A stretch of DNA of 64,000 nt, taken from positions 248,001 to 312,000 of the forward strand of contig CCRI01000004.1 of assembly GCA_000985875.1 (NCBI GenBank). The letters run 5' to 3'. The position numbers and the translations under genes were made by a program. Positions within the stretch are counted from its first letter, which is position 1, and each line of letters starts with the position of its first letter. Origin of the DNA: Neorhizobium galegae bv. officinalis. Lineage in GTDB: Bacteria > Pseudomonadota > Alphaproteobacteria > Rhizobiales > Rhizobiaceae. The notes beneath the pieces were generated by a model, which worked only from the letters and a program-made list of their open reading frames with translations, was not told the DNA's origin and made no database searches. This document shows positions 29,297 to 32,596 of this stretch, one piece after another.

Positions 29297-29863
29297 TCAG
29301 CTGCCGAATGCGCGGGAGGTGATCGCCGCGTCGCCTGCGTCCGGGCCGTAATCGCCCTCGCCGGATACGCCAAGCAGTTCCTGGAGGCGCGTACGGGCGC
29401 GGCTGACGCGGCTCTTGATCGTGCCGACGGCGCATCCGCAGATCGCAGCCGCTTCCTCATAGGCGAAACCGGCAGCACCCACGAGGATGATCGCTTCGCG
29501 CTGATCGTCGGGCAGCTTGTCGAGTGCCTTGCGGAAATCCTGAAGATCAAGGCGGCCGTACTGTTCCGGATGGACCGAAAACCGTTCGCTGAACAGGCCG
29601 TCGCTATCCTGCACCTCGCGTCCGCGCTTGCGCATCTGGCTGTAGAATTCGTTGCGCAGGATGGTGAACAGCCAGGCCCGCATGTTGGTGCCGGCGGTGA
29701 AGCTGGTCTGGTTGGCCCAGGCTTTCATGATCGTATCCTGCACAAGGTCGTCCGCCTTGTCGTGACGGCCCGTCAGGGATACGGCGAATGCGCGCAGGTT
29801 GGGCAGCGACGCGAGTAGGTCGCGCTTGAAGCCGCGATCGTCGATCTCGTCTTCCTTGCTCAT
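29297..29863 (-). CDS. ecfG: EcfG-family extracytoplasmic-function sigma factor (general stress)
   Basis: A 188-residue ECF sigma factor of the EcfG/RpoE2 class that directs RNA polymerase to general stress genes. Region 2 is LTGRHDKADDLVQDTIMKAW, and region 4 is LPDDQREAIILVGAAGFAYE followed by CGCAVGTIKSRVSRARTRLQ. The family works by partner switching: NepR holds the sigma factor until phosphorylated PhyR takes NepR away. Here nepR sits directly upstream with a 4-bp overlap and phyR is divergent, the classical arrangement. Four exact GGAAC-N16/17-CGTT promoters nearby are its expected targets. Confidence 0.95.
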   Translation of the reverse strand: MSKEDEIDDRGFKRDLLASLPNLRAFAVSLTGRHDKADDLVQDTIMKAWANQTSFTAGTNMRAWLFTILRNEFYSQMRKRGREVQDSDGLFSERFSVHPEQYGRLDLQDFRKALDKLPDDQREAIILVGAAGFAYEEAAAICGCAVGTIKSRVSRARTRLQELLGVSGEGDYGPDAGDAAITSRAFGS

Positions 29864-30072
29864 TTTGCATTCACCGGCTTGGCATTCTTTTCCGCCTGCT
29901 CGAGACGTTCAAGAAGATCGAGAAAACGATCCGGAATCCCTTCTTCCTGTACCGCATCGTAGAAGTCCCGTAACTTGCGGGATATTGATGCATTCGGCGG
30001 CACCGCTCCGGGTCGGACTTCACTGGATTGGATTGCTGTCATCTCTTCTTTTTTTCTCTTGTCGTCACTCAT
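29860..30072 (-). CDS. nepR: NepR-family anti-sigma factor
   Basis: A 70-residue anti-sigma factor that sequesters EcfG until PhyR-phosphate binds it. The core is NASISRKLRDFYDAVQEE followed by IPDRFLDLLERLEQ, the conserved two-helix NepR region. I start at MSDDKRKK (30072), which has family-like length; an open frame continues 41 codons upstream but would run through the promoter palindrome. Its stop overlaps the ecfG start (ATGA), so anti-sigma and sigma are made in a fixed ratio. Confidence 0.92.
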   Translation of the reverse strand: MSDDKRKKEEMTAIQSSEVRPGAVPPNASISRKLRDFYDAVQEEGIPDRFLDLLERLEQAEKNAKPVNAK

Positions 30073-30109
30073 CACGCGGGCAGCCTGTTGCGATATCGTC
30101 GGGCAAAGG

Positions 30110-30134
30110 AATTCCTGGCGGCAAAAAAAGTTCC
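30110..30134 (-). promoter_or_regulatory. Probable EcfG-type promoter of nepR-ecfG (imperfect)
   Basis: On the minus strand GGAAC (30134-30130) is followed after 16 bp by AATT instead of CGTT. The -35 box is perfect but the -10 box matches only its last two bases, so autoregulation of ecfG may be weaker than that of phyR or may use another promoter. Confidence 0.45.
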
Positions 30135-30154
30135 ACTCTTGCGGAACTTTTTTT
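30123..30154. promoter_or_regulatory. Perfect palindrome holding both divergent EcfG -35 boxes
   Basis: AAAAAAAGTTCC and GGAACTTTTTTT are perfect 12-bp arms around ACTCTTGC. The right arm carries the GGAAC box for phyR and the left arm the same box in reverse for nepR-ecfG, so the two stress promoters diverge from one dyad with their -35 boxes 8 bp apart. Confidence 0.85.
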
Positions 30155-30167
30155 CCAGGCCCACGTT
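30143..30167 (+). promoter_or_regulatory. EcfG-type promoter of phyR
   Basis: GGAAC at 30143-30147, 16-bp spacer, CGTT at 30164-30167: an exact match to the general stress consensus, 43 bp before the phyR start. It implies positive feedback of EcfG on phyR. Confidence 0.85.
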
Positions 30168-30210
30168 CATAACAGGTCAATTGCCCGCTGGGCACCGAGG
30201 GAGATTTTGT

Positions 30211-31005
30211 ATGTCACTCACCACACGCGTTGCGTCTCACCTTCCATATCTGCGTCGGTATGCTCGCGCCGTCACCGGATCACAGACCTCGGGAGACGCT
30301 TATGTCGCCGCGGTCCTGGAAGCGTTGATTGCAGACGTTTCGATATTCCCCGAAACGTCCAAGGACCGTGTCTCGCTTTATAAACTCTTTGTTACAATCT
30401 TTGGTTCCACGAACATTGAGATTCGCCCCATCGAATCGCCGTTTGCCTGGGAGCAACGTGCGGCCGCCAATCTGTCGATGCTTCCGTCTCAGTCGCGGCA
30501 TGCATTTCTGCTGGTCTCGGTCGAAGGTTTCAGCATCGAGGAAGCCGCCGAAGTCCTGGAAGTCAGCACCGCCGAGGTGAACCGCCTGCTCGACGACGCG
30601 ACCCGCGAGATCTCGCGGCAGGTGGCAACCGACATCATGATCATCGAGGACGAGCCGCTGATCGCGCTCGACATCGAGCAGATGGTGCAGGATCTCGGCC
30701 ATCGCGTCACCGGCATCGCCCGCACCCACAAGGAAGCGGTATCGCTGTTTCAGTCCTCGCACCCGAAAATGGTGCTGGCCGACATCCAGCTTGCTGACGG
30801 CAGCTCCGGCATCGACGCGGTCAACGAGATCCTGAAGTCTTCGAGCGTGCCGGTGATCTTCATCACCGCCTTTCCGGAACGGCTTCTGACCGGCGAACGC
30901 CCGGAACCGGCTTTCCTGGTTACCAAGCCGTTCAATCCGGACATGGTGAAGGCCTTGATCAGCCAGGCGCTGTTCTTCAACGAAGCCGTCAAGGCGGCCG
31001 CTTGA
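30211..31005 (+). CDS. phyR: PhyR-type response regulator (sigma-like domain plus receiver)
   Basis: A 264-residue protein with an N-terminal EcfG-like domain (about 1-135, including MLPSQSRHAFLLVSVEGFSI and VLEVSTAEVNRLL) and a C-terminal receiver (about 141-258). Receiver residues are Glu146/Asp147, phosphoacceptor Asp191 (MVLADIQLADG), Thr219 and Lys239 (VTKPF). When phosphorylated, its sigma-like part captures NepR and frees EcfG. The start at 30211 follows GAGGGAG and comes 43 bp after an exact EcfG promoter. The divergent nepR-ecfG and the HWE kinase 350 bp downstream complete the pathway. Confidence 0.95.
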   Translation: MSLTTRVASHLPYLRRYARAVTGSQTSGDAYVAAVLEALIADVSIFPETSKDRVSLYKLFVTIFGSTNIEIRPIESPFAWEQRAAANLSMLPSQSRHAFLLVSVEGFSIEEAAEVLEVSTAEVNRLLDDATREISRQVATDIMIIEDEPLIALDIEQMVQDLGHRVTGIARTHKEAVSLFQSSHPKMVLADIQLADGSSGIDAVNEILKSSSVPVIFITAFPERLLTGERPEPAFLVTKPFNPDMVKALISQALFFNEAVKAAA

Positions 31006-31035: not shown

Positions 31036-31061
31036 GGAACAATATACGACAGGTGGGCGTT
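31036..31061 (+). promoter_or_regulatory. EcfG-type promoter of the DUF1328 gene
   Basis: GGAAC at 31036-31040, a 17-bp spacer and CGTT at 31058-31061, 25 bp before the start codon of the small membrane protein: a canonical general stress promoter. Confidence 0.82.
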
Positions 31062-31251: not shown

Positions 31252-31354
31252 CGTCCTATAAAAGGCGGATAATCATGCTCATAAATGCGGGTATCTATGC
31301 GTTCAGCAGGCGCCCGGTTTTTCCAGCCAGCCCGCGGACGGAGTGAGGAATTTG

Positions 31355-32356
31355 ATGCATCCCCTGACATGGCAGCAGGCTGGTCAGAGTGATGACAAGT
31401 TACGTGAATTTTTCATGCCCGCACTGGTGGATCTCGGCGCCAGTATCATGATCCAGGACGCCGGCCGGAATTACCTCTTCGTCACGCATCTTCCGGAGAT
31501 CTGGGCTGTCGAGCATGTCAGGACACCCACCGATGTCATTCTGTTCGGCGAGGAGGTCGGAGCAAAGCTCGCGATCCTCAAGGACGGCATGACGGAAGCC
31601 GGCCGCAAGGGCCACATCGAGATCACCATCGGCACCGAGCAGATCTACGAGTTCCGGGTCCAGACGGTGGAATTCTCCAATGGCGGCCTGCATTTCGTCA
31701 CCACGATCATCGACCGTTCCGAGGAGCGTCACCGCGAGCGGCTGCTGCGCGCGCTGCTGCGGGAAGTCAGCCACCGTTCCAAGAACCTGCTCGCCATCAT
31801 CCAGAGCATCGCGCTGCAGACGGCCCGCTATTCGGGCTCGCTGGAACTGTTTCTGCACAAGTTCCGGGGGCGGCTCTATTCCCTTTCGCAGAGCCAGGAC
31901 CTGATCACCGATTCCAGCTGGCGCGGCGCCTATTTCTTTGAACTGGTGCAGCAGCAGACGGAAAAATACCTGCCGGAGAACAAGCACCTGGTGCGCGTCC
32001 ACGGCGACAATATTCTTCTGACGCCGAACGCTTCGCTGCATATCGGACTGGCGCTTCATGAGCTGATCGTCAATGCGGTCAGCCACGGCTCGCTCCTGCG
32101 CAGCGGCAGGGTGATCAACGTCACCTGCACCCGCATGCATCTCAACGGCCATGACTCGCTCGAGATGATCTGGGACGAGGTGCTGGACGCCAGCCGGAGC
32201 TCCGAAGATAACGAGGAGTCGCTGAAGGCGCATTTCGGCAGCACGGTGCTCGAACGCGTCGTGCCGGCCTCCGTCAACGGCAAGGCGCAATACGTCATCT
32301 CCAACGACCGCATCAGCTATCGGCTGGTGTTTCCGCTCGAGAGTGGCGGGGACTGA
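31355..32356 (+). CDS. HWE/HisKA_2-family sensor histidine kinase, soluble, probable PhyR kinase
   Basis: A 333-residue cytoplasmic kinase without membrane segments. The N-terminal half (about 15-120) is a PAS-like sensor; the dimerisation box is LREVSHRSKNLLAIIQSIAL with phosphoacceptor His140, followed by the N-box HELIVNAVSHG (Asn240). HWE/HisKA_2 kinases are the usual activators of PhyR and this one lies beside phyR, so that is the likely partner. The region where the G1 box should be reads WDEVLDASRSSEDNEE, and the G2-like block is HFGSTVLERVV, so ATP binding may be altered. I chose ATG 31355 (GGAGTGAGGA upstream); a GTG four codons earlier is possible. Confidence 0.85.
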   Translation: MHPLTWQQAGQSDDKLREFFMPALVDLGASIMIQDAGRNYLFVTHLPEIWAVEHVRTPTDVILFGEEVGAKLAILKDGMTEAGRKGHIEITIGTEQIYEFRVQTVEFSNGGLHFVTTIIDRSEERHRERLLRALLREVSHRSKNLLAIIQSIALQTARYSGSLELFLHKFRGRLYSLSQSQDLITDSSWRGAYFFELVQQQTEKYLPENKHLVRVHGDNILLTPNASLHIGLALHELIVNAVSHGSLLRSGRVINVTCTRMHLNGHDSLEMIWDEVLDASRSSEDNEESLKAHFGSTVLERVVPASVNGKAQYVISNDRISYRLVFPLESGGD

Positions 32357-32439: not shown

Positions 32440-32565
32440 ATCCCACAAAACTGAGCTGGCTCGGTTCCGGTTGACGGAGCCGAGCCAGTTCGTCTCTTCG
32501 AGGGGGATTGAAGAGTAGGTCCGAAGGCTTTGTAGGGCGGGGGACGGGGGGTCGCCTTCGAACAC
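32440..32565 (-). ncRNA. Candidate EcfG-dependent small RNA with C-rich loops
   Basis: No gene fits the 349-bp gap 32357-32705, but a minus-strand transcript does. An exact EcfG promoter ends at 32572, giving a start near 32565. The RNA would fold into three hairpins. First, CGAAGGC/GCCTTCG (32560-32554 with 32528-32522) encloses a 25-nt loop with runs of six and five C. Second, CTCTTC/GAAGAG (32515-32510 with 32499-32494) encloses a loop with five C. Third, a 14-bp stem (32488-32456) is followed by CTCAGTTTTG, a plausible terminator. C-rich loops that pair with ribosome sites are known in alphaproteobacterial stress RNAs such as GsrN; similarity is by architecture only. Confidence 0.6.
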
Positions 32566-32571
32566 TGATAT

Positions 32572-32596
32572 AACGAGCGCCCTAGAAATAGGTTCC
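32572..32596 (-). promoter_or_regulatory. EcfG-type promoter of the candidate small RNA
   Basis: On the minus strand GGAAC (32596-32592), a 16-bp spacer and CGTT (32575-32572) match the general stress consensus exactly. It points away from the importer genes and towards the 3' end of the kinase gene, where no protein gene is seen. Confidence 0.75.

Follow-up and report, generated by a model that had tools for sequence, protein, structure and literature searches.

A predicted EcfG-driven small RNA with nearly invariant C-rich loops beside the general stress response genes of a Neorhizobium-like bacterium

Does the gap behind the kinase gene of a rhizobial general stress response (GSR) locus only separate two convergent genes, or does it encode a regulatory RNA? 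The question arose from a window of 64,000 nucleotides (the whole stretch of DNA that was analysed), which holds a GSR locus composed of nepR and ecfG on the minus strand and of phyR, a DUF1328 gene and an HWE histidine kinase gene on the plus strand. Between the stop codons of the kinase gene (32356) and of oppC (32706) lie 349 nt, the size given in the original prediction, which had placed an EcfG-driven stress RNA in this gap. The present analysis makes it highly probable that the segment encodes an EcfG-driven, trans-acting small RNA, most likely the ortholog of ReC64 of Rhizobium etli and most likely acting by pairing with G-rich sites.

Promoter, fold and conservation of the predicted RNA

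The following elements were assigned within the gap:

32572..32596, minus strand: EcfG-type promoter, with GGAAC at 32596-32592, a 16-nt spacer and CGTT at 32575-32572
32447..32565, minus strand: predicted small RNA of ~119 nt; start from promoter spacing, end from the T-run
32519..32563, minus strand: hairpin 1, whose 10 pairs close a C-rich loop of 25 nt (32553-32529); based on pairing and covariation, loop core nearly invariant
32494..32515, minus strand: hairpin 2, CUCUUC-AAUCCCCCUC-GAAGAG, 6 pairs, loop at 32509-32500; stem letters fixed in 47 of 47 distinct sequences
32456..32488, minus strand: stem 3, resembling a terminator, with 13 pairs plus a mismatch; based on covariation and a folding z of -4.9
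32447..32450, minus strand: short T-run (TTTT) after stem 3, read from the sequence

On the minus strand the gap thus contains, in this order, a hairpin with a T-run following oppC, the GGAAC-N16-CGTT motif and the predicted RNA. The exact motif directed leftward into the gap was found as predicted, at 32596-32572. The start of the RNA was set approximately 7 nt past CGTT and is putative, the end was assigned to the T-run at 32450-32447. By itself the EcfG motif is weak evidence, while its conservation is strong evidence. The looser pattern GGAACN{15,17}CGTT has five matches in the window compared to 1.5 expected, and three of 100 shuffles reached five. Further GGAAC-CGTT motifs were noticed on the plus strand, at 30143-30167 before phyR and at 31036-31061 before the DUF1328 gene (N16 and N17, respectively).

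The whole RNA folds with an energy of -50.1 kcal/mol versus a mean of -34.1 for shuffled sequences (z -4.3; reached by none of 200 shuffles). Folded alone, hairpin 1 revealed a z of -3.1 and stem 3 one of -4.9, whereas hairpin 2 was unremarkable (-6.0 kcal/mol, z only -1.8) and is left out of the minimum-energy fold of the whole RNA. The loop of hairpin 1, CCCCCCGUCCCCCGCCCU, holds C runs of 6, 5 and 3. Stretches of 125 nt with at least three runs of five or more C were rare (16 of 25,550 tested), all of them on the minus strand at the place of the RNA, and its C-run pattern was found nowhere else in the window. Of the RNA of about 125 nt with two C-loop hairpins that had been proposed, the C runs (six plus five, then five) were recovered, but the length came to ~119 nt and hairpin 2 is missing from the energetically best structure. 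Similarly, the 14-bp stem with a short T-run turned out to be a stem of 13 pairs plus one mismatch followed by four T.

For the study of conservation, 60 genomes were searched by blastn; 36 belong to the genus, the own genome among them, and 24 to other families of the order. The 38 matches fell into 36 of the 60 genomes, comprising all 36 of the genus, while none of the 24 genomes from other families gave a match. Thirty of the 38 matches were turned into loci and two of the remaining eight were looked at. A kinase-based scan added 29 named loci, which resulted in a total of 59 loci with 47 distinct sequences; blastn and named loci sharing one sequence probably stem from the same strains or near ones. 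The promoter motif was present at 59 of 59 Neorhizobium-group loci examined. In the 47 distinct sequences, both boxes, GGAAC and CGTT, were identical throughout and were always separated by 16 nt without gaps, even though the mean identity of the spacer was 0.59. RNA and promoter motif lie downstream of the kinase gene in 29 of 29 named loci, and oppC has been retained as neighbor in all of them. Because this synteny is kept, it is by itself no proof of selection on the RNA. Selection on the RNA is instead shown by the pattern of change and by second copies on other contigs.

As to the pattern of change, the cores of loops 1 and 2 were nearly invariant, and 97.2% of the 1333 cells of the structure alignment were paired, with 15 of 29 pairs changed on both sides. 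The covariation score was reached by none of 500 shuffles, and a shift of the alignment by one column cut pairing to 51-54%. Compensatory changes, which had been expected in three stems, were detected in hairpin 1 (100% pairing, with both sides changed in 6 of 10 pairs) and stem 3 (97.5%, 9 of 13 pairs). Both sides of the hairpin-2 stem were identical in 47 of 47 sequences; hence there is no covariation inside the group for this element. RNAalifold, applied to alignment A1, misplaced hairpin 2, as about one fifth of the rows were shifted by one; the structure on A1 was fixed by hand and hairpin 2 there shows 92% paired cells. The stems and the promoter have not been lost in close relatives; such a loss had been named as evidence against an RNA.

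Second copies of the RNA on another contig were detected in two genomes (L246:2493-2589, plus strand, in G033; L247:2437-2534, minus strand, in G013). They have their own GGAAC-N16-CGTT and the same C-rich loops but a different terminator stem, and in the 5 kb around them no match to ecfG, phyR or the kinase gene was obtained.

Known RNAs at the same place and of the same style

A published RNA probably corresponds to the segment. ReC64 of R. etli is described as an intergenic RNA downstream of phyR-tcrY with an EcfG1 consensus promoter; its 5' end was determined by RACE (rapid amplification of cDNA ends), its expression was abolished in an ecfG1 mutant and it was activated by EcfG in Escherichia coli (PMC3892343). 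It is reported to be over-expressed upon saline shock (PMC4167512). The Neorhizobium RNA shares with ReC64 the intergenic position downstream of phyR and a kinase gene (29 of 29 named loci) and the EcfG consensus promoter. A comparison at the place of ReC64 itself was possible by means of genome G088, which matches plasmid p42e of R. etli CFN42 with 96% identity over 2975 nt and is, judged by this identity, a near relative. At its GSR locus (L082, L153) an EcfG motif lies 182 nt past the kinase gene, and a covariance model of the Neorhizobium RNA (R1) matched at the syntenic place with an E-value of 4.9e-4. The architecture at L153 is similar, with other stems and with loops that diverge in part. 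It is therefore likely, by proxy, that the Neorhizobium RNA is the ortholog of ReC64. An RNA of this kind had already been described from the corresponding position of a related rhizobium, and the Neorhizobium RNA is an added member. No paper on the latter was found in the literature searched, which did not extend to most subscription journals. In sum, both the conservation and the published ReC64 speak strongly for an EcfG-driven small RNA within the stress locus.

To what extent the RNA occurs in other genera was studied within the same family (f1, taken as Rhizobiaceae in the sense of GTDB). A kinase search was successful in 98 of 121 genomes. Of these, 96 lie outside the genus, and the best match was fetched for the 74 with the lowest E-values. 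A phyR match was located upstream of the kinase gene in all 74 loci, and 21 of them contained a convergent EcfG motif 110-500 nt past the kinase gene, which alone is a modest figure given a background rate of 0.11 motifs per 500 nt and strand at GSR loci. Seventeen of these 21 loci then show at least two runs of four or more C, compared to 3.6% of random 140-nt stretches, while L110 and L152 have the motif but no C runs. Judged by eye, many of the 21 can form hairpins that expose C-rich loops, along with a stem resembling a terminator; the hairpins placed like hairpin 2 carry other stem letters. Model R1 yielded 19 matches up to an E-value of 10 on the 74 loci, 12 of which were convergent within 500 nt past the kinase gene; below 0.05 this held for 8 of 9. 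The two best matches outside the genus among these loci were L114:2321-2435 and L117:3506-3623. In both, inspection by eye revealed GGAAC-N16-CATT in place of CGTT, with GGAAC inside an inverted repeat. Searches across the family and the order gave three matches outside the genus (L065, L066, L068). L065:1501-1627, from another genus, matched with an E-value of 2.8e-7 and is convergent about 100 nt past the end of phyR, with no kinase match in the 3 kb examined. Around L066 and L068 no GSR gene or EcfG motif was present in 3 kb.

GsrN of Caulobacter is the second RNA to be considered. It is described as EcfG-driven, with a C-rich loop that pairs with G-rich sites, and as an activator of katG via a G-tract in the leader, and its traits include cleavage to a stable 5' isoform and an effect of Hfq; the same paper, published in 2018, predicts C-rich, EcfG-driven RNAs beside the GSR locus of R. 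etli, Sinorhizobium meliloti, Brucella abortus and Agrobacterium radiobacter (PMC5869019). Like GsrN, the Neorhizobium RNA is roughly 100 nt in length, has a promoter of the general stress sigma factor and exposes a C-rich 5' loop that is its most conserved part, but katG pairing is not supported. The link to GsrN concerns working style, by virtue of the EcfG promoter and an exposed C-rich loop, rather than demonstrated kinship. Several hairpins, conserved C-rich loops, diverged stems and a link to stress also characterize the anti-Shine-Dalgarno CCUCCUCCC RNAs (RFMSmelA075/RFMSmelA099) as described in PMC3927594. Unlike these, the Neorhizobium RNA has loops (CCCCCCGUCCCCCGCCCU and AAUCCCCCUC) without CCUCCUCCC and is present as a single copy in its own genome. 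No match to a known RNA family emerged: neither in the window nor in five loci did any Rfam family (Rfam 15) attain its gathering score. Six weak Rfam matches, including Pxr and Yfr20, were rejected, all being far below their thresholds. Pxr (RF01812) has a similar outline and matched weakly over the whole RNA (E 0.039), with 23.6 bits versus a gathering score of 80.

Mode of action, candidate targets and alternative explanations

The reading of the segment as a pairing RNA is favored because invariant loops sit on exchangeable stems. When the PhyR-NepR-EcfG switch is on, a trans-acting RNA of ~119 nt would be transcribed from its own EcfG promoter. It would present two fixed C-rich single-stranded loops, with stems 1 and 3 serving as exchangeable scaffolds, and the loops would most likely pair, in the leaders or at the ribosome sites of several mRNAs, with short stretches rich in G. 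Control by EcfG is suggested by the promoter and by the published R. etli RNA, pairing with mRNAs by the loops and the analogy to GsrN.

Several observations weigh against this reading. The four-T run after stem 3 is weak and, being too short, is not listed by the terminator scan. ReC64 is reported at 88 nt, together with a larger band whose origin is unclear (PMC3892343, PMC2881028), compared to ~119 nt predicted for the Neorhizobium RNA; the larger band could be a transcript running to stem 3. For ReC64, SigA/RpoH promoters have also been predicted (PMC4167512), and the assignment as its ortholog rests on the proxy genome and on position, not on the letters of ReC64 itself. Of the 74 loci from other genera, 53 gave no convergent EcfG motif in the range of 110-500 nt past the kinase gene. 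Matches to model R1 were few, with 7 of 297 genomes of the family and 2 of 199 genomes of the order (own genome included in each case), although only 12 or 17 candidates per genome were scored. Perfect 10-mer complements of loop 1 were not enriched, with 10 (the RNA's own place included) versus 20 for the reversed control. Finally, at 19 katG loci of the same genus, the z of the loop-1 energy was -2.4 in L177 and between -1.0 and +1.8 in the other 18.

In these 19 katG leaders, in about three of which the start codon was misplaced, no conserved G-tract was seen, and katG was rejected as a target since its leaders contain no conserved match. Of the pairing of C-rich loops with ribosome sites in the manner of GsrN, as originally proposed, the style of promoter and loop was retained, the katG leaders spoke against it, and a site at phyR emerged as a lead. 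Among nine perfect complements of the loop-1 core, at least five fall within an open frame or at its start. The pattern GAGGGGGN{2,9}ATG matched 114 times versus 7 for its reversed control, an excess that was rejected as a target signal as it is inflated by inverted repeats (one locus looked at). At this locus, L221:1481-1634, inverted repeats with 46-nt arms hold GAGGGGGAGATG, which recurs across the own genome, and transcripts of such repeats would contain the exact complement of UCCCCCUC in loop 2. The repeats are possibly an intergenic element of the RIME type.

The lead at phyR concerns the GSR genes, which were assigned as follows:

29297..30195, minus strand: nepR and EcfG sigma factor gene; Pfam NepR, Sigma70_r2, Sigma70_r4_2
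30211..31005, plus strand: phyR; Pfam PhyR_sigma2, PhyR_sigma-like, Response_reg; loop 2 may pair with its ribosome site
31343..32356, plus strand: HWE histidine kinase gene, convergent with the RNA; Pfam HWE_HK, E 5.6e-22

The DUF1328 gene is situated between phyR and the kinase gene. The nearest named kinase proteins, 96-98% identical, belong to Neorhizobium vignae, N. tomejilense, N. galegae and their kin; the host of the locus is a Neorhizobium-like bacterium.

It is conceivable, if unlikely, that the RNA mainly acts on the stress switch itself, loop 2 pairing with the phyR ribosome site and thereby dampening or tuning PhyR synthesis. Among eight start regions of the locus tried with both loops, loop 2 stood out only with phyR. 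By prediction, each of the 53 start regions that were called in the window is a poorer partner of loop 2 than the phyR start region, and phyR ranked first in 25 of 29 named loci, where 4 of 248 other start regions were as good. The G-rich ribosome site of phyR reads GAGGGAG or AGGGGAG in Neorhizobium-group loci. In 19 distant loci from other genera, own pairs exceeded swapped pairs in contiguous match (5.74 vs 5.19 nt; permutation p 0.0037) and in pairing energy (p 0.013), kinship being ignored in both tests; examples are CCCUCGGU with ACCGAGGG in L102 and CUCCCG with CGGGAG in L151 and L153. However, phyR was picked after eight start regions and two loops had been viewed, scrambled RNAs already reach 5.15 nt, some of the longest matches fall in stems, and the signal fades in distant genera, as phyR ranked first in just 5 of these 19 loci, 37 of 82 other start regions being as good (median percentile 0.35). 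The phyR site as a target of loop 2 is thus only a lead. The feedback that it would imply, in which the output of EcfG tunes the synthesis of its own activator PhyR while loop and site change together between genera, is correspondingly doubtful. Directly before the phyR ribosome site, a small GCCC-GGGC inverted repeat was noticed by eye (30183-30193 and several of L031-L059).

It is very unlikely that the segment is the 3' untranslated region of the opp operon or a terminator shared by the convergent genes. Its location downstream of oppC on the same strand, with oppC adjoining in the 29 named loci, and the kinase gene converging on it would fit this explanation. On the other hand, oppC is followed by a separate hairpin with a T-run (32685-32657), invariant EcfG boxes lie just upstream of the RNA, the copies on other contigs have their own promoter, and it is not obvious what hairpin 1 and the fixed loops would contribute to termination. 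That the segment encodes a small protein is improbable in the extreme: 46 of 47 rows have a sense frame open over 120 nt, which the richness in G and C would lead one to expect, and GTG opens one frame in the window, but the spacing of the invariant loops modulo 3 is 0, 1 and 2 in 6, 21 and 20 of the 47 sequences, no ATG occurs within 75 nt past CGTT in 25 of 47 and changes follow base pairs, so that the predicted absence of a protein gene from the gap was borne out for the RNA segment, where no frame is kept.

What had been a published locus, ReC64, and a positional prediction of a GsrN counterpart has become an RNA with alignment support, comprising fixed loops, covarying stems and a fixed promoter. 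The alignment defines which nucleotides to mutate, and phyR is the first target to test. A direct test of what the stress RNA does in rhizobia thereby comes within reach.
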